64,000 nucleotides of DNA, taken from positions 44,871,109 to 44,935,108 of the forward strand of contig CM037864.1 of assembly GCA_021292105.1 (NCBI GenBank). Direction: 5' to 3'. The DNA comes from Anadara kagoshimensis (Eukaryota; Mollusca; Bivalvia; Arcoida; Arcidae). The notes under the pieces were generated by a model that was not told where the DNA came from, did not search any database, and saw only the letters and a list, made by a program, of their open reading frames with translations. The position numbers and the translations under genes were made by a program. The stretch's first letter is position 1. Each line of letters opens with the position of its first letter. Positions 935 through 44,310 of the stretch are shown one piece after another.

Positions 935-2275
935 TCAATAGGTTCATTATTCATGGTACATTGTTCTATTTATTGTATTAGTTCATAGTACATATAGGAC
1001 ATGTTCATAGTTCATAATTCTGTTTATAGAACATGTTCATGGCAGATAGTTCTATTTATAATATAAATGTTCATTATTGAAAGTAAATTATTCTATTATT
1101 AGAACATGTTTATAGCAAATTGTTCTATTTATAGTACACGTTCATTATTCGAAGTAAATTATCTTTATAAACATGTTCACAGTAGATTGTTCTATTTATA
1201 GTATGCGTTCAATATACAAAGTGAATTATTCTATTTATAGAATATGTTCCTTATTCAAAGTAAATTATTCTATTTATAGAACATGTTCATAGTATATTGT
1301 TCTATTTATAGTAGGTGTTCATTATTCATAGTACACTGTTCTATTTATAGAACATGTTCATAGTAGGTTGTTCTATATATAGTATAAGTTCATTGTCCAA
1401 AGTAAATTATTCTATTTATAGAATATGTTCATAGTACATTGTTCTATTTATAGTAAGTGTTCATTATTCAAAGTAAATTATTCTATTTATAGAACATGTT
1501 CATAGTGCATTGTTCTATTTATAGTAGGTGTTCATTATTTATAGTACACTGTTCTATTTATAGAACATGTTCATAGTATATTGTTCTATCTATAGTAGGT
1601 GTTCATTATTCATAGTGCAGTACACTGTTCTATTTATAGAACATGTTCATAGTATATTGTTCTATTTATAGAAGGTGTTTATTATTCATAGTACTGTTCT
1701 ATTTATAGAACATGTTCATAGTATATTGTTCTATTTATAGGTGTTCATTATTAATGGTACACTGTTCTATTTATAGAACATGTTCATAGTATATTGTTCT
1801 ATTTAGTAGGTGTTTATTATTCATAGTACAGTTCTATTTATAGAACATGTGTATAGTATATTGTTCTATTTATAGTAGGTGTTCATTATTTATAGTACAC
1901 TGTTCTATTTATAGAACATGTTCATAGTATATTGTTCTATTTATAGTAGATGTTCATTATTCATAGTACACTGTTCTATTTATAGAACATGTTCATAGTA
2001 TATTGTTCTATTTATAGTAGGTGTTCATTATTAATAGTACACTGTTCTATTTATAGAACATGTTCATAGTATATTATTCTATTTATAGGTGTTTATTATT
2101 CATAGTACAGTTCTATTTATAGAACATGTGTATAGTATATTGTTCTATTTATAGTAGGTGTTCATTATTCATAGTACACTGTTCTATTTATAGAACATGT
2201 TCATAGTATATTGTTCTATTTATAGTGGGTGTTCATTATTCATAGTACACTGTTCTATTTATAGACTATATTACT
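935..2275. repeat. Minisatellite, about 72-bp unit with internal hairpin
   Basis: The block is a tandem array of roughly 60-77-bp units, about 18 in all. They are degenerate at the left end and cleaner to the right. Each unit repeats GTTCTATTTATAGAAC, itself an interrupted palindrome (GTTCTA-TTTA-TAGAAC), followed by ATGTTCATAGTATATTG and a GGTGTTCATTATTCATAG segment. Units differ by small indels and base changes, so the array is not very recent. No coding function is seen; the short open frame at 2197-2382 lies in repeats. Confidence 0.9.
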
Positions 2276-2319
2276 TGACTTATTATCCGTTGTACATTAA
2301 TTTGTCAGCTTCAAAGTTT

Positions 2320-2820
2320 GTATATTGCTTTGTGATTGTGATTTGGACATGGATTGGTATGTTTGTTTTTACTTTGCTTTAGGATCGCGATCTGGGCATG
2401 GATTGGCATGTTTATTTTTACTTTGTTTTAGGATTGTGATTTGGACATGGATTGGCAGGTTTGTTTTTTACTTTGCTTTGTGATTGAGATTTGGACATGG
2501 ATTGGTATGTTTGTTTTTACTTTGCTTTAGGATTGTGTTTTGGACATAGATTGAAATGTTTATCTTTACTTCGTTTTGGGATTGTGGTTTGAACATGGAT
2601 TGGTATGTTTGTTTTTACTTTGCTTTATAATTGTGATTTGGACATTCATTGGTATGTTTGTTTTTACTTTGTTTTTGGATTGTGGTTTGAACATGGATTG
2701 TTATGTTTGTTTTGACTTTGTTTTGGGATTGTGGTTTGAACATGGATTGTTATGTTTGTTTTATGTTTTGTTGTTTTGGGATTGTGGTTTGAAAATGGAT
2801 TGGTACATTGGGTTTTGATT
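2320..2820. repeat. Minisatellite, about 49-bp unit, related to family G
   Basis: About ten tandem copies of a 48-52-bp unit are present. Each contains GATTGTGATTTGGACATGG followed by ATTGGTATGTTTGTTTTTACTTTG. The same words form the 3' end of the dispersed family called G here (for example 44735-44900 and 61735-61890). The array therefore looks like local amplification of the tail of a family G copy. The unit length of about 49 is close to a multiple of 3 in places, so an 80-codon open frame arises by chance. Confidence 0.85.
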
Positions 2821-3435
2821 CTTGCTTTGATCTGCAGATATAGAAAGGATGTTCATTGATGGAGCAATATTAGAGGAAAAAATTGAATGACGTCAACCAG
2901 ATTTTTTTAAATACTCAAACAAAATTAGAGAATAACATGCAAATCACCAGTTTGTGATGGTGTAAAATGTTCAGGCAGAAAATTTCATATGCATGCTAGC
3001 TAAAAAAGGAAAAGAAATACTATCATTTATGGATGGTATTCATAGACCGATTTCAACGTTCATTTTGTGTTTCAATGAAATTTCTATTTTTAACAGTATT
3101 ATATATATATATATATCGTCCCATACAAAATTAATTTAGTTTCAAAGCCATCGCTTAATAAAACCTAGAAAAACTTCTTTATCAATACTTTTAATACCAT
3201 TTTACTTTTTTTTAATATAAAAACATGTTTCAAAAGACTTTCACTCTTGCCCTCCACTACAATTTAGAATTTTAAATTTAACTGAAAAAAAAAAACAAAA
3301 ATAATCGAATATCATAGAATTTTTTGGTAAAAGGCTAGGTGGTACAAAAAGCACATTTACTTTATGTTTCAAGAATAGATAGTCGTTCATGAATGCATAT
3401 ATAAATATATAGTATAAAATGCATTCTAACATGAC
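2821..3435. other. AT-rich spacer with short (AT)n run
   Basis: No gene is recognised. A short AT dinucleotide run lies near 3098-3116. An open frame on the minus strand (3241-3432) has low-complexity composition and no recognisable motif. Confidence 0.4.
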
Positions 3436-19386: not shown

Positions 19387-19550
19387 ATACTTACCTGGTA
19401 CAGGGGATACCGTGATCCGCAAGGCGGTTCCCCCAGGACGAGGCCTTTCCATTGCACTCCGGTTAGGCTGAATCCTGCGATTGCCCCAAATGTGGGCAAC
19501 TCGGGTACGTAATTTTTTAGTGTGGGGGACTGCGTTCGCGCTATCCCCCG
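19387..19550 (+). ncRNA. U1: U1 spliceosomal snRNA
   Basis: U1 pairs with 5' splice sites in the nucleus. The 164-nt sequence starts ATACTTACCTGG, the invariant U1 5' end complementary to the 5' splice site. Stem-loop II keeps CCATTGCACTCCGG, the U1A-binding loop. Stem-loop III has CCCCAAATGTGGG. The Sm site is AATTTTTTAG (19511-19520) and stem-loop IV is GGGGGACTGCGTTCGCGCT ending in ATCCCCC. Several stems show paired changes relative to human U1 (CAGGA/TCCTG, TTGCCC/GGGCAA, ACCG/CGGT), so the fold is preserved. The U1-70K loop is unusual: GATCCGCAAGG instead of GATCACGAAGG. A stretch like a 3' box (GTTAACAAACTCCCAAGAAA) lies about 15 nt downstream. The gene points away from the photolyase gene. 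Confidence 0.92.
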
Positions 19551-27119: not shown

Positions 27120-27205
27120 TATATTTGCATACCTTAATTTTTGGGGAATTTCAGATTTTAACTAGCAGCAAATTTAGACAATAGTATATTTTTAATAATA
27201 CACAA
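27120..27205 (-). repeat. Fragment of the hammerhead-bearing repeat family
   Basis: TACCTTAATTTTTGGGGAAT and AACTAGCAGCAAATTTAGAC then AATAGTATATTTTTAATAAT match the non-ribozyme part of the elements at 38080-38335 and 43845-44060. The ribozyme core is not present in this fragment. Confidence 0.65.
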
Positions 27206-27430
27206 TTAAACATAAATCTATTTTGCAGATTGAGTTAGATGATTAGGAGGATAACCCAAATGAAGTGCTTATCTCTACATAGTGGATGTTGATACTTATA
27301 CAGTTACAAAGAAGCTACTCTCTGAGGAAAAAGACAAACCAGAAAGCTTTTTGTAGATAGGTGAAAAAAACTTGTTGTGTTAGAAGAGGAACAAGTTCCA
27401 AAGTTTTGGGTCCATAAGGAAAAACAAGTT

Positions 27431-33915: not shown

Positions 33916-34637
33916 TAAATAATAAAATAAACACTAACGACAGCATGATTCTTCATATCGCAATATATTTCGAATACACAGTATTCCTTATCAAGCTTAC
34001 ATTATAACTGACTTAAAATTACAAAATACAAGATATATGTATAGAACATTATTTACAAATTATACAATCTAATTACATAAAAGTGTCACCTGATTAAGTG
34101 AAAACCAATTAGGGTTTAGCCTAAGGGTTATTGGAACACATTCAGTAAGAAAGTTGTCCCATCACCCGCTAATTGTTTATTTAGGGTAGGCCTTTCATCT
34201 TTGATATGTAAAGCCTACAGGATCACCAAGTCAAAGTCTGAATTACCTTTATTCAGAGTTTTGAAACACTTGGTGATCCCGAACTCTTTACATCTCTTAC
34301 AATTTTCCACATGATTGAATATGGCACTACCGGTTTTATTATGTTCAGTAATGCGTCTCTGAAGGAATCTTTTAGTTTTACCTACATAGGTAACACTTGG
34401 ATCCTCCAAGCATTGAAATTTATAAATCACAGATGCCTTCAGGACGCTATTACTTTTGTCTTTTAGTGAGAAGTAATTTTTCACCTTAAATGATGAAAAC
34501 ACTATATTGACCTGTATATTTTTACATTTGAAAATATTTTGAAGTTTTTTCTTTAATACTAGTGAAGGGTTGCCAATAAACGGTAAAAGAAAAGTGTATT
34601 TAATATCCTCTTTAGTTTTAGTCCCGAATATATTATA
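33916..34637 (-). pseudogene. Penelope-like element, GIY-YIG endonuclease part (copy 1, truncated)
   Basis: On the minus strand the frame encodes LPFIGNPS, FFSL-like KNYFSLKDKS, SVIYKFQC, VTYVGKTKRFLQRRITEH and IFNHVENCKRC. These match the linker and GIY-YIG endonuclease of Penelope-like retroelements, in which GIY-YIG reads as VIY...YVG. The frame stops at 34215 with TAG where the inverted copy at 36301-36892 has GAG, a Glu in ILEALHIK. That Glu is in the position of the conserved metal-binding Glu of GIY-YIG enzymes. The reverse-transcriptase domain is missing. The non-coding 3' region runs to about 33916. Confidence 0.88.
33945..33995 (-). ncRNA. Degenerate hammerhead-like motif of Penelope-like element (copy 1)
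   Basis: On the minus strand, CTTGATAAGGAATACTGTGT followed by ATTCGAAATATATTGCGATA has the order of a hammerhead core (CTGATGA, stem II, GAAA, stem III). Two core positions deviate (CTTGATAAG for CTGATGAAG). Penelope-like elements are known to carry hammerhead motifs in their terminal regions. Self-cleavage is doubtful given the core changes. Confidence 0.45.
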
Positions 34638-36235
34638 CGAGCATATTATTTTTTAAAGATAATGACAATTTGTGATTTGACTCGAGCATATTATTTTTAA
34701 ATGAAAATGACAATTCATGGTTCTGCATAGGTGTATTTTTTTAAATAATGGCAACAACAAGTTTATTGTGGATTTTTTCATGCAGACAGTAAGTATAATA
34801 ACATTTTAACTACGGCTTTATATATCCAGAACCCGGAACAAAGATTTCCTCTAGCTTATTTGTCAATTTTTAGGATATTCATGATATGTAATTTAAAGTG
34901 TCATTTTGAAGATCAATCAAACCTTATTGTTACTTTATTACAATTTTGTCGAAACCATTTGTAGTACAAACAGGTTTAAATTGAGGAAAAACCTTAGTTA
35001 AGGTATCTTTTGTGGACACAGCCTAGGGTTAACAGAGTTTAAATGTGTGTGTGTGTGTGTGTGTGTCGGTTAATTGTAGAAGATAAGTTAGCTATTATAG
35101 TAGCCAGATACCAGCGAGGGATATAATATATTAAATATCTTAGAAAAAAATGTACCCATCGTGTGCGTATTGTAGCTTATAGATACTTGATAATTGACAT
35201 CAATGGACGAGCATTGAATAAAGTTAGTCATGGTGTACTTGAATATCTTAGAAATGAGAAAACAAGTAGACTTCTGAACAACAAATTAAAATTTGAAAAA
35301 TATGTGGAACAAAATGTTTCTTGCAGCATTAATTGATGGTAGCTTCGCTAAACCTACTTATTTAGAATACATTACTGGTTGAATTCAAATGCATGGGTCG
35401 TATAAAGACTCTTTATACGAGCAATGCAATTGAATTCAACCAGTATGCATTCTAAATTACGACTATAATAAATTAAGAATATCGTGTTTACACCTGTATA
35501 ACGAAAATTTAAATAATAAAATAAACACTAACGACAGCATGATTCTTCATATCGCAATATATTTCGAATACACAGTATTCCTTATCAAGCTTACATTATA
35601 ACTGACTTAAAATTACAAAATACAAGATATATGTATAGAACATTATTTAAATTATACAATCTAATTACATAAAAGTGTCACCTGATTAAGTGAAAACCAA
35701 TTACAATTAGGGTTTAGCCTAAGGGTTATTGGAACACATTCAGTAAGAAAGTTGTCCCATCACCCGCTAATTGTTTATTTAGGGTAGGCCTTTCATCTTT
35801 GATATGTAAAGCCTACAGGATCACCAAGTCAAAGTCTGAATTACCTTTATTCAGAGTTTTGAAACACTTGGTGATCCCGAACTCTTTACATCTCTTACAA
35901 TTTTCCACATGATTGAATATGGCACTACCGGTTTTATTATGTTCAGTAATGCGTCTCTGAAGGAATCTTTTAGTTTTACCTACATAGGTAACACTTGGAT
36001 CCTCCAAGCATTGAAATTTATAAATCACAGATGCCTTCAGGACGCTATTACTTTTGTCTTTTAGTGAGAAGTAATTTTTCACCTTAAATGATGAAAACAC
36101 TATATTGACCTGTATATTTTTACATTTGAAAATATTTTGAAGTTTTTTCTTTAATACTAGTGAAGGGTTGCCAATAAACGGTAAAAGAAAAGTGTATTTA
36201 ATATCCTCTTTAGTTTTAGTCCCGAATATATTATA
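34638..36235. repeat. Right copy of the 1.6-kb tandem duplication
   Basis: Matches 33017-34637 end to end; the join at 34637/34638 is TATTATA|CGAGC. Beyond 36235 the right copy continues into Penelope-like sequence missing from the left copy. Confidence 0.95.
35044..35067. repeat. (GT)n microsatellite
   Basis: About 12 GT units; the shorter allele of the same repeat found at 33424-33472. Confidence 0.98.
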
Positions 36236-36300
36236 ATTTCCCGAAATTTTGTCCGAAATGAATTTTCTCACAATATTGTCAATATATATATTTATAGTCA
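35516..36300 (-). pseudogene. Penelope-like element, GIY-YIG endonuclease part (copy 2)
   Basis: Same protein as copy 1 but longer at its N-terminus. The frame begins near 36301 with IVRKFISDKISGNYNIFGTK, then YTFLLPFIGNPSLVLKKKLQ before the endonuclease. It stops at 35813 at the same TAG as copy 1, so the nonsense change predates the duplication. The 3' region again carries the degenerate hammerhead-like motif (about 35545-35600). The catalytic reverse-transcriptase domain is absent. Confidence 0.88.
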
Positions 36301-36892
36301 ATATAGTGTTTTCATCATTTAAGGTGAAAAATTACTTCTCACTAAAAGACAAAAGTAATAGCGTCCTGAAGGCATCTGTGATTTATAAATTTCAATGCTT
36401 GGAGGATCCAAGTGTTACCTATGTAGGTAAAACTAAAAGATTCCTTCAGAGAGACGCATTACTGAACATAATAAAACCGTTAGTGCCATATTCAATCATG
36501 TGGAAAATTGTAAGAGATGTAAAGAGTTCGGGATCACCAAGTGTTTCAAAACTCTGAATAAAGGTAATTCAGACTTTGACTTGGTGATCCTGGAGGCTTT
36601 ACATATCAAAGATGAAAGGTCTATCCTAAATAAACAATTAGCGGGTGATGGGACAACTTTCTTACTGAATGTGTTCCAATAACCCTTAGGCTAAACCCTA
36701 ATTGGTTTTCACTTAATCAGGTGACACTTTTATGTAATTAGATTGTATAATTTGTAAATAATGTTCTATACATATATCTTGTATTTTGTAATTTTAAGTC
36801 AGTTATAATGTAAGCTTGATAAGGAATACTGTGTATTCGAAATATATTGCGATATGAAGAATCATGCTGTCGTTAGTGTTTATTTTATTATT
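36301..36892 (+). pseudogene. Penelope-like element, GIY-YIG endonuclease part (copy 3, inverted)
   Basis: This plus-strand copy faces copy 2 head to head, about 185 bp between the matching VFSSFKV codons. It encodes KNYFSLKDKS, SVIYKFQC, VTYVGKTKRF, then a 2-bp insertion (CAGAGAGACG for CAGAGACG) shifts the frame. The original frame resumes as ENCKRCKEFGITKCF and runs through ILEALHIKDERSILNKQL to LLNVFQ and a stop at about 36682. It keeps the GIY-YIG Glu codon that copies 1 and 2 lost. The 3' region ends in GTTTATTTTATTATT near 36892 and contains the same hammerhead-like motif at about 36811-36865. Confidence 0.88.
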
Positions 36893-37803: not shown

Positions 37804-38422
37804 ATGCTTTGTGTCGCATTAAATCCATTCTTATATTTTAGATTCAACAAACGGTTTTGTAGAAGGCTGATTATTCGTTTAGTGTCTGGAGTCACTATAC
37901 TCTCCTTGTTTCTTATGCTATTTTCCGGTCACACTGGTAAGATAATTGTCACTATTATACAACTTAAATATGCGTAGTCTCTAATACAATTTCAACACCA
38001 TCATTGCAGTAAGCATATAAATGCATTTTGCCACACATGTTACACATAACAGTAACATACAATTACATAGTATACCAGTTTTAATTTTACAGTAATAAAC
38101 GGCCGTTTCGGAATACAATTCCTCATCAGTAGTGCTTGGACTAAAACGTTGAAAAGATACACAAGGTCCAAAATATATTTTACCAAATAGTTAAGGAAAT
38201 ACTTTGCATGAGGGAGTATACCTTAGTTTTTGTGGAATTTTGACTAGCAGCAAATTGAGACAATAGTATCTTTCTGACAATAATACTCAATTTTTGCCTA
38301 CTGAGTTTGATATCCTCGGGGAAACATCCACCAGCAGAGATACCGGCACGTGGTTTAAATTCTATATTATACGATATAAACACATAATACATGGAGAAAC
38401 AATCAAGATGGTAAGAGAGCGT

Positions 38423-41400: not shown

Positions 41401-43405
41401 AGAACTGCATGTACTAATTACAAAGTTAATATGATTGATCCCACAAGTGTTATAATAATAATAATAATACAAAATTATGTTATTAAATTACAAAAGCATA
41501 TGCAGTTGTACGCTATACACGCTTTTCCCTACTCATATTAAAAATTAGATTCTCCAGATTTTGTGCGAAAACTGTCCAATTTGGGATTCTGTATTGTCAA
41601 GCAACATACTATATACTGTAGATACCATTGACAAATGTTAATAGTGTTTGATAGACACCAAATTTGTGTTTGGTGATATAACTTGGGACATGGACAATTT
41701 TGATTACACACGTGGAGGGTGTAGCTAGCTAAACAGGAGGTGCTTACCCTTCCGGATCACAAGGCCTCACTTCCCTGGTGGAAGTTCGCGTGTCTTACTT
41801 AAATTGTCAGTTCCAAAGTTTTAGCTTTGCTTCTGGATTGTGATTCGGACATAGAGTATTATATTTGTTTTTGTTTGTTATGTATGTTTTTTGGTTATTT
41901 TTTCCAACAATCGATATACTGATGGACACAAACTGTGCACCTGAAGAGAAGACTGTCTCTGTATCCAAACTTACCCTGAATATATTTGATTTCCTATATT
42001 TATATGTTCCTTTCATTCTCAATTTTCATTACACGCATGTCGGTAGTAGCTAGCTGAACAGGAGGTGCTTACCATCCCGGATCACACAGTCTCACTTTCT
42101 GGTTTAACTTTGTCAGATTCGCTTTGGGAGTATGACTTGAACATGAATGTTTGTTTTTTATTACTTACTTTTTAAAACCAATTTCATTTTTTTATTTACA
42201 TAAGTTTTGGATATAGTTTTGATATTTTATTTTGTAGGATTCCTTTCAATCGGGATTCCAACCGTAAGTAGATCGTTCAATAAAAGAGGTTATTTATATG
42301 AGACGTTAGATTCATTGATAGAAAATACAAGTGATGATGACAAAGAGGAGATTACGGTTGTCATATTTGTGGCAGATTTTAACACCTCGTGGAACTTAAT
42401 GACAGCACAAAATATTTATAATACATATAAAAACTTCTGTGACTCAGGATTCATCAATGTTATACACGCCAAATCTATAATATATCCGCAATTTTCAAAA
42501 CTAGAGAGGAGGTTTAACGATCCAATGTCGCGGGTAGTGTGGCGTTCGAAACAAAATATTGATTTTGCGCTGTTGATGTTGTATACTAAAAATATTTCAA
42601 TCTATTATATGCAATTAGAAGATGACGTCATAAGTGCAAAATCATTTTTAACCGACATCAAAAAATTTATTGTGCAGCAACCTAAACAAAATTGGGTGTA
42701 TCTAGAATTTTCACGACTTGGATTTATTGGAAAATTATTCAGAACAAATTTAGTAGATAAAGTAGCCAATCTGCTTCTAACATTATTTGACATAATGCCA
42801 TGTGATATGCTCTTGGACGGTTTTAGAACATTGTTAGGACAGAAGAAACCTATACATCCAAAACAAAGTTTATTTCAACATATAGGAAAAATATCATCTT
42901 TAAAAATAAAATTCTCCCTTTGATTGATGACACTTTTAAAGATTTTGGATCGCAAGTACTTGATGTTATGAGGGTACCAAAAGGAGATAATCCACATGCA
43001 AAAGTTGAGACAAATATGAAAGCCTCTAGTGGTGAATATTTACCTGAATATGCTTATAAAAATTCCTCATCTTTTTTCTGGGCTTCTGACCCAGGCAAGG
43101 GGAAATATTACCGCATTATTTATGATAAACCCTTAAATATTTCACGAATTATCGTGTCGACTGGAGATAGAATGAAGAAAAAAGATATTTTAAACCGTGG
43201 ATCTTTAGCGGTTGGAAAAACTCAACAGTGTAATGATTTGACAGTAATTGCAGACTTTGTAGCGGGTTATATAGATACATTAATTCAAGGCGTAACCTTC
43301 CCACCGTCGTCAGAAAATATCCAATGTATTTCAATTGATATTAGAAAATCCCAGAAGAACTGGTTGATTATAGACAAAATATCTGTGTTCATAAACAAAA
43401 GATGA
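37804..43405 (+). CDS. MGAT4C-like beta-1,4-N-acetylglucosaminyltransferase (frame break in last exon)
   Basis: A Golgi type II membrane glycosyltransferase of the MGAT4 (GnT-IV) family, which adds GlcNAc to N-glycan mannose. Proposed exons: 37804-37936, 38908-38958, 39559-39740, 41064-41190, 42238-43405. All junctions are GT-AG and phases fit. Exon 1 has a basic stretch then a membrane segment (VSGVTILSLFLMLFSG). Exon 3 has a second hydrophobic stretch (TLFVLITYFFLCAVC), unusual for the family. The catalytic domain reads SIGIPTVSRSFNKRGYLYET, VADFNTSW, VVWRSKQNIDFALL, MQLEDDV (EDD near residue 292) and FSRLGFIGKLF, then MPCDMLL and SLFQHIG. The tail (SSFFWASDP, DILNRGSLAVG, NWLIIDKISVF) is closest to vertebrate MGAT4C. 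At about 42901-42911 the frame breaks by one base at TTTAAAA and resumes in the -1 frame to a stop at 43405. The start codon is uncertain. Confidence 0.85.
38080..38335 (-). mobile_element. Retrozyme-like element with hammerhead ribozyme (copy A)
   Basis: Copy A shares with 43845-44060 the words TACCAGTTTTAATTTTA, TCATCAGTAGTG, TACCTTAGTTTTTG, GACTAGCAGCAAATTGAGAC and AATAGTAT. On the minus strand it carries a hammerhead core (see 38090-38136). No protein is encoded. It lies in the first intron of the MGAT4C-like gene. Small hammerhead-bearing non-autonomous elements (retrozymes) are known in animals; assignment here is by structure. Confidence 0.65.
38090..38136 (-). ncRNA. Type I hammerhead ribozyme (copy A)
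   Basis: Read 5' to 3' on the minus strand: stem I strand AGCACTA, core CTGATGA, stem II GGAAT-TGT-ATTCC (five perfect pairs), GAAA, stem III ACGGCCGT, then the cleavage region TTTATTACT. All invariant hammerhead residues are present. The 3' strand of stem I is TATTACT here, pairing 5 of 7; copy C keeps TAGTGCT, which would pair all seven. Confidence 0.75.
38425..38475. repeat. (AT)n microsatellite
   Basis: AT dinucleotide run of about 50 bp with one interruption. Confidence 0.95.
39825..39990 (-). repeat. Family G dispersed repeat copy, minus orientation
   Basis: Contains GTGAACTCCCAACAGAGAAG, GTGCTCCTAAACGCCTCCTG, TAAGCTAACTACACCTGCC and AATCAAAATTAAGAACAAAA, the reverse complement of the family order, inside the intron after MGAT4C-like exon 3. 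Confidence 0.65.
40315..40530 (+). repeat. Family G dispersed repeat copy
   Basis: TTCCTTTCATTCTTAATTAA, AACTAGCTAGACAGGAGGTG, TTACCCTTTCAGAACACC, TAAGTTCACATG, TTTGCCAGTTTTTC and GATTGTGACTTTGACATGGA follow the family order. Confidence 0.8.
41690..41870 (+). repeat. Family G dispersed repeat copy
   Basis: TAGCTAGCTAAACAGGAGGT, GCTTACCCTTCCGGATCACA, CACTTCCCTGGTGGAAGTTC, AAATTGTCAGTTCCAAAGTT and GGATTGTGATTCGGACATAG appear in family order, in the intron before the last MGAT4C-like exon. Confidence 0.85.
42000..42160 (+). repeat. Family G dispersed repeat copy
   Basis: TTCCTTTCATTCTCAATTTT, TAGCTAGCTGAACAGGAGGT, GCTTACCATCCCGGATCACA and ATGACTTGAACATGAATG in family order, immediately 5' of the last MGAT4C-like exon. 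Confidence 0.8.
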
Positions 43406-43640: not shown

Positions 43641-43844
43641 TGTTATTCAGTATCGTTTCATTTGTATTGCATCCAACTTGAGGATAAATGTCACATTTAA
43701 TAATTATATGACACACCTGCTAGAAACCCATCACACTAAGCACATATCATAATACAGTATGATTGTATATTTGCAAAAAGCCATTTGGAGCTTTATCATT
43801 GCTGAAATGCTCGAAATGCAATTTTTATACTATTACATTTTATA

Positions 43845-44060
43845 CCAGTGTTAATTTTATAGATGGTAGTTTCGGGATACGATTCCTCATCAGTAGTGGT
43901 TGGACCTAAATTCTTTCAAGGGGTTGAAAAAATATCCAAAATAACAAAATATTTTTAAAACAAATTTAGTTAAGAAAATATTTTACATGAAGAAGTACCG
44001 TACATGTTAGTTTTTGAGGATTTTAAACTAGCAGCAAATTGAGACAATAGTATATTTTTG
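43845..44060 (-). mobile_element. Retrozyme-like element with hammerhead ribozyme (copy B)
   Basis: Matches copy A (38080-38335) over about 210 bp and is followed by copy C at the same orientation, with the ribozyme positions about 307 bp apart. A head-to-tail pair is the arrangement expected of retrozyme dimers. No protein is encoded. Confidence 0.6.
43862..43900 (-). ncRNA. Hammerhead ribozyme (copy B), 3' strand of stem I partly deleted
   Basis: Minus strand: ACCACTA, CTGATGA, stem II GGAAT-CGT-ATCCC (four of five pairs), GAAAC, then TACCATCTATAAAATT. Compared with copies A and C, GTGCTG is missing after the cleavage site. The core residues are intact but stem I cannot fully form, so cleavage is doubtful. 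Confidence 0.6.
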
Positions 44061-44159
44061 ACAGTATAGAAATATTGCCAACCGAATGTATGAAATCTTC
44101 AGGGATGCTTAGACCACAAGCAAAAAACCGGGCTAATGGTTGATTTTGCATATCCAAAA

Positions 44160-44310
44160 AACAAATAATTTTACAGCACTAGACGGTCGATTCAGAACAC
44201 AAATTCAGTTGTGCTTAGATCAAAATTATGAAACATATCCGATATATATCTGAAAGAATTTAGCTACAGAAATACCTGTTTGAATGAGGGAGTCTACCTT
44301 GGTTTTTTAC
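44160..44310 (-). mobile_element. Retrozyme-like element (copy C), ribozyme core decayed
   Basis: Minus strand: AAGCACAACTGAATTTGTGT then TCTGAATCGACCGTCTAGTG and CTGTAAAATT. The CTGATGA core is reduced, but GACCGTC and TAGTGCT keep the stem III/cleavage and the 3' stem I strand. The body keeps TGAATGAGGGAGTCTACCTT. It helps to reconstruct which bases paired in the family. Confidence 0.6.

Follow-up and report, generated by a model that had tools for sequence, protein, structure and literature searches.

Metazoan non-LTR retrozymes have been defined in PMC7229834, which, in the accessible part of its text, proposes that their circles are copied by rolling reverse transcription with Penelope or LINE enzymes. 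A mussel family described there has units of about 350-390 bp and about 5,000 type I hammerheads, which, according to the same text, lack most of the contacts between loops I and II that canonical type I hammerheads have. Target-site duplications (TSDs) of metazoan retrozymes, when present, are given there as longer than 4 bp, and a stable, self-paired circle is treated as a common property of retrozymes, not as a criterion. Plant LTR retrozymes are also non-autonomous retroelements with hammerheads; they differ, according to the available portions of PMC7229834 and PMC7761336, in having a type III hammerhead, LTRs, a PBS, a PPT, 4-bp TSDs and a length of 600-1000 bp. Penelope-like elements carry hammerheads that the same two sources describe, where accessible, as minimal. 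A purified Penelope enzyme is reported in the accessible sections of PMC11167929 to initiate internally, past the hammerhead cut, with an end that corresponds to the genomic tail, and to cut at AT-rich sites, and hammerhead activity was dispensable for Penelope insertion in vitro.

Here, we analyzed a hammerhead-bearing repeat in a stretch of 64,000 nucleotides of Anadara kagoshimensis DNA (hereafter, the window) and its family in the genome. The explanation that we prefer, with a probability of roughly 0.6, is that the window holds a decayed non-LTR retrozyme copy, and that such copies are made by Penelope-type target priming on an RNA circle produced by the ribozyme. Taken separately, membership of the retrozyme class is close to certain, a circular template is probable, and Penelope-type machinery is rather likely.

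The family has a repeat unit in the range of about 150-450 bp with G+C content below 45-50%, and a type I hammerhead, which the window copy retains in part. Since these are the sequence features by which such elements are recognized in the accessible text of PMC7229834, the family is a metazoan non-LTR retrozyme, a kind already known. It resembles metazoan retrozymes, notably that of mussel, in its type I hammerhead, low G+C content, lack of coding capacity, thousands of copies, both in tandem and dispersed, and in sharing its genome with Penelope-like elements (PMC7229834, as accessible); it differs from them, in a comparison with the published description of the mussel family, in having no target duplication of at least 10 bp and a palindromic, 3-bp helix III. 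The newt and axolotl hammerhead repeats (330-350 bp, same source and extent) are similar in unit length and in a helix III that is weak, palindromic and suited to dimer formation. However, helix III is ACGGCCGU here and, in axolotl, has a single pair plus a palindromic tetraloop in Amex1 and two pairs in Amex2, and copies number in the thousands here, compared to about 120,000 in those repeats. Hammerhead-bearing Penelope-like elements, as far as PMC11167929 is accessible, likewise have an end fixed downstream of the cut, partial tandem copies and A/T next to the end; in contrast to them, the retrozyme unit contains no reverse transcriptase or GIY-YIG endonuclease (no ATG frame above 22 codons). 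The tail past the cut is 36-37 nt in the retrozyme, 64-71 nt in a Penelope-like family of the same genome (represented by locus L104), and 85-92 nt in Anolis, the last value summed from figures in PMC11167929.

The hammerhead copy in the window

The first-pass annotation had quoted a near-complete hammerhead string on the minus strand, within an element placed at 38080-38335. The string was found as quoted, by eye, at 38091-38136, and the element was widened to 38061-38372 by alignment to the family consensus. At least four relatives had been claimed in the window; relatives do exist, and three were found. The features, all on the minus strand, are listed below.

38061-38372, minus: whole retrozyme copy, 312 bp, about 1.04 units, running from unit position 23 (38372) to about 37 (38061), identified by blastn and by local alignment with the family consensus
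38091-38136, minus: type I hammerhead motif, helix I partly decayed (eye, RF00163, Markov control)
38136-38130, minus: 5' strand of helix I, AGCACTA (by eye)
38129-38123, minus: core CTGATGA (by eye)
38122-38110, minus: helix II, GGAAT/TGT/ATTCC (by eye)
38109-38106, minus: GAAA (by eye)
38105-38100, minus: CGGCCG (by eye)
38099 and 38098, minus: U16.1 and H17, respectively (by eye)
between 38098 and 38097, minus: predicted self-cleavage position (family alignment and hammerhead consensus)
38061-38097, minus: tail past the cut, ending in TGTAATT, the fixed 3' end of insertions of the family
43832-44181, minus: older relative with about 71% identity across the unit and with core CTGATGAGGAATCGTATCCCGAAA at 43870-43893
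44239-44307, minus: fragment of a relative
27129-27208, minus: fragment of a relative, positions 105-187 of the 322-nt consensus

The hammerhead is present as claimed, in a decayed state: the cut triplet is GUU, compared to GUC in the family, helix I has lost two of its seven pairs, and the strand at the cut site reads GTT-TATTACT instead of GTC-TAGTGCT. Against the Rfam model Hammerhead_1 (RF00163), a search of 121 nt gave the window copy 17.4 bits (E = 0.066) at 38092-38135, short of the gathering score of 34, and no hammerhead was listed in a gathering scan of the whole window or in a 2.5-kb scan.

A chance hammerhead-like string would be compatible with this lack of significance in Rfam and with the number of bare cores CTGATGA..GAAA, three in the window versus 1.35 expected by chance. 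Because the bare core is near its chance frequency, the weight is carried by the helices and by the existence of a family. A pattern scan for the core together with its three helices found one site in the window, the motif described above, and none in 60 first-order Markov windows; genomic copies number in the thousands, versus 0 and 22 in the controls. The family refutes the chance reading, the probability of which we consider negligible. The window copy is best regarded as a worn relic of a non-autonomous, non-LTR retrozyme.

A near-identical twin of the window copy lies 1.8 Mb away (L001, C8:44909188, and L002, C8:46732450). The flanks of the two match as well, at 93-99% over about 2.5 kb, in inverted orientation; thus, the sequence was copied by segmental duplication, unless the twin is an assembly duplicate. 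MGAT4 conserved and C-terminal domains are encoded on the plus strand at 42207-43405, 3.8 kb from the element, which plausibly lies within an intron of this MGAT4-domain gene. The sole match of the Rfam gathering scan of the window was a complete U1 spliceosomal RNA (19387-19550, plus strand, 148 bits). Near-identical Penelope-type GIY-YIG frames are present at 34215-34652 (minus), 35813-36331 (minus) and 36237-36557 (plus), two of which were scanned and scored 22.8 and 22.3 bits; a 110-bp perfect inverted repeat (36000-36109 / 36297-36406) is located at these frames.

The family and its consensus ribozyme

We searched the genome from which the window comes (1.115 Gb, 36 contigs). A DNA search with the window element yielded 43 scored places, with 76-100% identity, out of 3,324 candidates. 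A 68-nt pattern comprising the ribozyme and the tail had 5,130 matches with at most three mismatches, versus 0 for the reversed control, and a pattern of core, GAAA and GUC had 7,952 exact matches, versus 22 for the reversed control; nearly all of the 100 core and GUC matches listed resemble this family. The exact 25-nt core had 0 matches in a collection of viral contigs and 0 in a collection of genome contigs. The genome-wide search thus bears out the earlier proposal of a retrozyme lineage in this animal, with 5,130 pattern matches to a non-coding sequence of 34% G+C that occurs dispersed and in short arrays.

The consensus unit is 322 nt when derived from older copies and 339 nt when derived from young ones. 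The young consensus has 34.2% G+C, and its longest ATG frame, read around the circular unit, is 22 codons, in agreement with the earlier statement that the element encodes no protein. The consensus ribozyme is AGCACUA-CUGAUGA-GGAAU UGU AUUCC-GAAA-CGGCCG-UC, followed across the cut by UAGUGCU. Helix I forms a perfect 7 bp, the cut triplet is GUC, and helix III is the palindrome ACGGCCGU, with 3 bp. Loop II is UGU, and a possible internal loop of helix I, GGUCCA/GU, was seen by eye before AAUUUU:AAAAUU.

The covariance model favored the hammerhead reading for the family, though not for the window copy alone. A copy of the consensus type (L098) matched Hammerhead_1 with 28.1 bits and E = 1.8e-5 in a 121-nt search, which supports the hammerhead; this is still below the gathering score of 34, the window copy is weaker, as noted above, and an E-value scan of 20 whole loci (L009-L028) showed no hammerhead at E<=3. 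It should be noted that Rfam hammerhead matches surfaced in short stretches only, not in whole-locus scans. Conservation of the core, the other property on which the first-pass annotation had staked its reading, is likewise supported for the family by the excess of exact sites over the reversed control, but a finer test, of variant avoidance, does not reach significance. Subfamily-level variants fall on 0 of 46 ribozyme positions and on 14 of 289 others (Fisher p = 0.23), so that selection on the ribozyme, as sought through shared-variant positions, was not significant.

In fold predictions, two consensus motifs together adopt precisely the dimeric hammerhead, with 8 bp in helix III, at -34.5 kcal/mol compared to -12.3 for one motif; the lowest-energy fold predicted for a single motif alone differs from the hammerhead. 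Because helix III is self-complementary, cleavage is most likely to occur in dimers, as far as these predictions indicate. The predicted circle has -64.4 kcal/mol and is 67% paired, and 60 base shuffles gave -61.1 (sd 5.1); thus, the predicted circular RNA has no extra stability over the shuffles, and high self-pairing was not seen.

Insertion ends, lengths and arrays

We examined the ends of insertions in 48 loci obtained with the exact pattern (set B, young copies) and in 40 loci obtained with the window query (set A, older copies, L009-L048). There were 109 chained matches, 12 of which ended outside unit positions 30-45 and were dropped (two of them were cut by the locus end); the remaining 97 were reduced to 87 by deduplication on the 3' flank, and to 86 by dropping one at a locus edge.

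The 3' end is fixed. In set A, the query for which stops at unit position 18, 29 of 37 ends are at unit positions 36-40; in set B, the pattern for which requires the tail up to position 36, 47 of 49 are at 36-41, and run-on occurs as further units only. Measured from the ribozyme cut, insertions therefore extend for about 36-37 nt. Of 69 ends, 78% have T and 19% have A directly after position 36, which makes 97% with either base. No LTR architecture was seen among the 86 insertions.

The 5' ends of set B are evenly spread over the unit phase (KS p = 0.76). Among these 49 copies, 30 are shorter than one unit, 2 are of 1.0-1.1 units, 11 of 1.1-2 units and 6 of at least 2 units. A pile-up at unit position 1, as would result from run-off on cleaved linear RNA, was not found in set B (one end at 1 and one at 335, n = 49); both queries span the cut and at least 60 nt was required, so that 36-nt run-off copies of cleaved linear RNA are missed. 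Copies of 1.0-1.1 units are more frequent in the older set A (14 of 37) than in the young set B (2 of 49; Fisher p = 1.1e-4), the two sets having been chosen differently; the pile-up of set A just past one lap is not fully separable from the way in which that set was chosen.

Exact repeats of at least 10 bp at the junctions were found in 0 of the 86 insertions. Shorter repeats are slightly in excess: at least 7 bp in 5 of 86, compared to 1.1% of shuffled pairs, and at least 5 bp in 20 of 86, compared to 15.5%. Local similarity of the flanks at score 8 was observed in 39 of 86, compared to 30% of shuffled pairs, the excess at low scores being weak. The weak excess of repeats and of flank similarity leaves room for short target duplications. 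One locus (L041) has a 17-bp near-repeat in its flanks. A long flank repeat at L015 was considered as a target duplication and rejected, as it lies in an apparent tandem satellite. Paralogous empty sites show a junction without duplication or deletion at L070 and a gain of about 4 nt at L067. At L079, two copies of the retrozyme, 1472-1626 (minus) and 1625-3051 (plus), stand head to head with no gap, one of them 88% and the other 98% like the consensus; L024 contains a tail-to-tail pair.

Arrays of about 3.5-4.8 units were found in L063, L075, L078, L079 and L084, and four full units in L105. The spacing in arrays is near-constant at 338-339, and the region C3:9335233-9339359 has 11 exact matches and room for 13 units. 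Such regularity would be accounted for by a satellite repeat that DNA-level processes have spread and whose hammerhead is a relic. However, dispersed monomers and 5'-truncated pieces share a common 3' end at unrelated sites, and the helices are intact in the consensus. The fixed 3' end and the genome counts led us to reject the satellite-only reading, which we regard as very improbable.

For comparison of units, 12 loci were reduced to 8 with at least two units; L014 was left out and L085 duplicates L084, which leaves six independent young arrays, in some of which only part of the units was compared. In five of the six, the mean within-array differences between units are 1.0, 2.0, 4.5, 5.0 and 9.3, compared to 16.3 between arrays, and the units share 5-16 variants. 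The exception is L075, with an intra-array difference of 19. The four units of L105 share 9 or 11 variants, depending on the way of counting, and its terminal tail also carries the variant of unit position 33. One template unit per array is consistent with copying from a circle; unequal crossing-over is also possible.

Every copy studied spans the ribozyme cut, which suggests a template with a closed cut junction; it should be noted that the queries themselves span the cut. Such a template could also be an uncut, tandem linear transcript of the same retrozyme family, with the ribozyme unneeded for insertion. The in vitro work favors this possibility, as the Penelope enzyme used unprocessed RNA and needed no hammerhead activity (accessible text of PMC11167929). 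However, 32 of the 49 copies of set B are below 1.1 units and are unable alone to template multi-unit arrays, and the set A excess at 1.0-1.1 units, with the same reservation about differently chosen sets, would be a natural stop past one lap on a circle. We consider the linear template unlikely.

Candidate enzyme and proposed route of copying

The genome contains Penelope-like elements, with 83 GIY-YIG matches. One of them (L104) has reverse transcriptase (5.7e-10) and GIY-YIG (6.9e-8) domains and, near its 3' end, a hammerhead-like motif, CTGATGA..GAAAC AT GTC, recognized by eye. Copies of this family end 64-71 nt past the cut of the motif in seven different flanks (L104 and 6 of 16 fetched stretches); the other 10 of the 16 share a continuation beyond that point, which is presumably the next unit. 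In a second Penelope-type group (L107, L111 and L113), the motif CTGAAGA..GAAA was seen, also by eye. Rfam recognized a hammerhead in neither group, and comparison by eye of the retrozyme tail with the Penelope tails gave no convincing match.

Penelope GIY-YIG domains and 3' ends often occur in oppositely oriented neighboring pairs, e.g., C15:54986423(-)/54989902(+), C3:1658447(+)/1660515(-), and C4:16808610(-),16810560(-)/16811083(+),16813040(+), some with tandem units at a spacing of about 1.95 kb on both sides. In L103, a retrozyme copy (120-345) and a Penelope GIY-YIG domain are about 1.2 kb apart and oppositely oriented, which could be due to chance.

Target-primed elements in general have a fixed 3' end and a variable 5' end. 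This pattern would equally fit insertion by a LINE-type enzyme, instead of a Penelope enzyme, through target-primed reverse transcription. Conversely, the printed 3' flanks have no poly-A or simple-repeat tail, no junction repeat of at least 10 bp was found among the 86 insertions, and the end is located beyond a hammerhead cut, like that of the Penelope family of the same genome; a LINE-type enzyme therefore appears improbable to us. We favor a Penelope-type enzyme, as a fixed internal end and AT-rich sites match the behavior of the Penelope enzyme described in the accessible part of PMC11167929.

Under this Penelope-type reading, copying could proceed as follows. The DNA of the element would be transcribed, and type I hammerheads would cut the transcript between GUC and UAGUGCU, most likely as dimers, as the fold predictions indicate. 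A host ligase would then close the unit-length RNA into a circle of about 339 nt, by analogy with what the accessible text of PMC7229834 describes. A reverse transcriptase, supplied most likely by a Penelope-like element of the same genome, would initiate at one site within the RNA, about 36-37 nt downstream of the cut, where the fixed end is observed, probably with AT-rich target DNA as the primer. The enzyme would cross the re-joined cut and circle for a variable distance, and may so produce the observed pattern of 5'-truncated copies, monomers and short arrays.

What is new in this family is the fixed tail past the ribozyme cut, the scattered 5' ends, the arrays with private variants and the lack of duplications of at least 10 bp. 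In literature of limited subscription coverage, we found no paper that joins retrozymes, Penelope and target-primed reverse transcription. As to how animal retrozymes re-enter DNA, the accessible text of PMC7229834 suggests either LINEs or Penelope-like elements, with priming on the circle. The many copies of this family, its young arrays and its fixed end make this question testable. More generally, and tentatively, with somewhat less than even confidence, animal retrozymes may live off Penelope-type internal initiation on a ribozyme-made circle, so that copies would record the start site and the laps run. In this family, the end would then mark the start of reverse transcription and the length of an array the number of laps, with the co-resident Penelope elements as the candidate enzymes.
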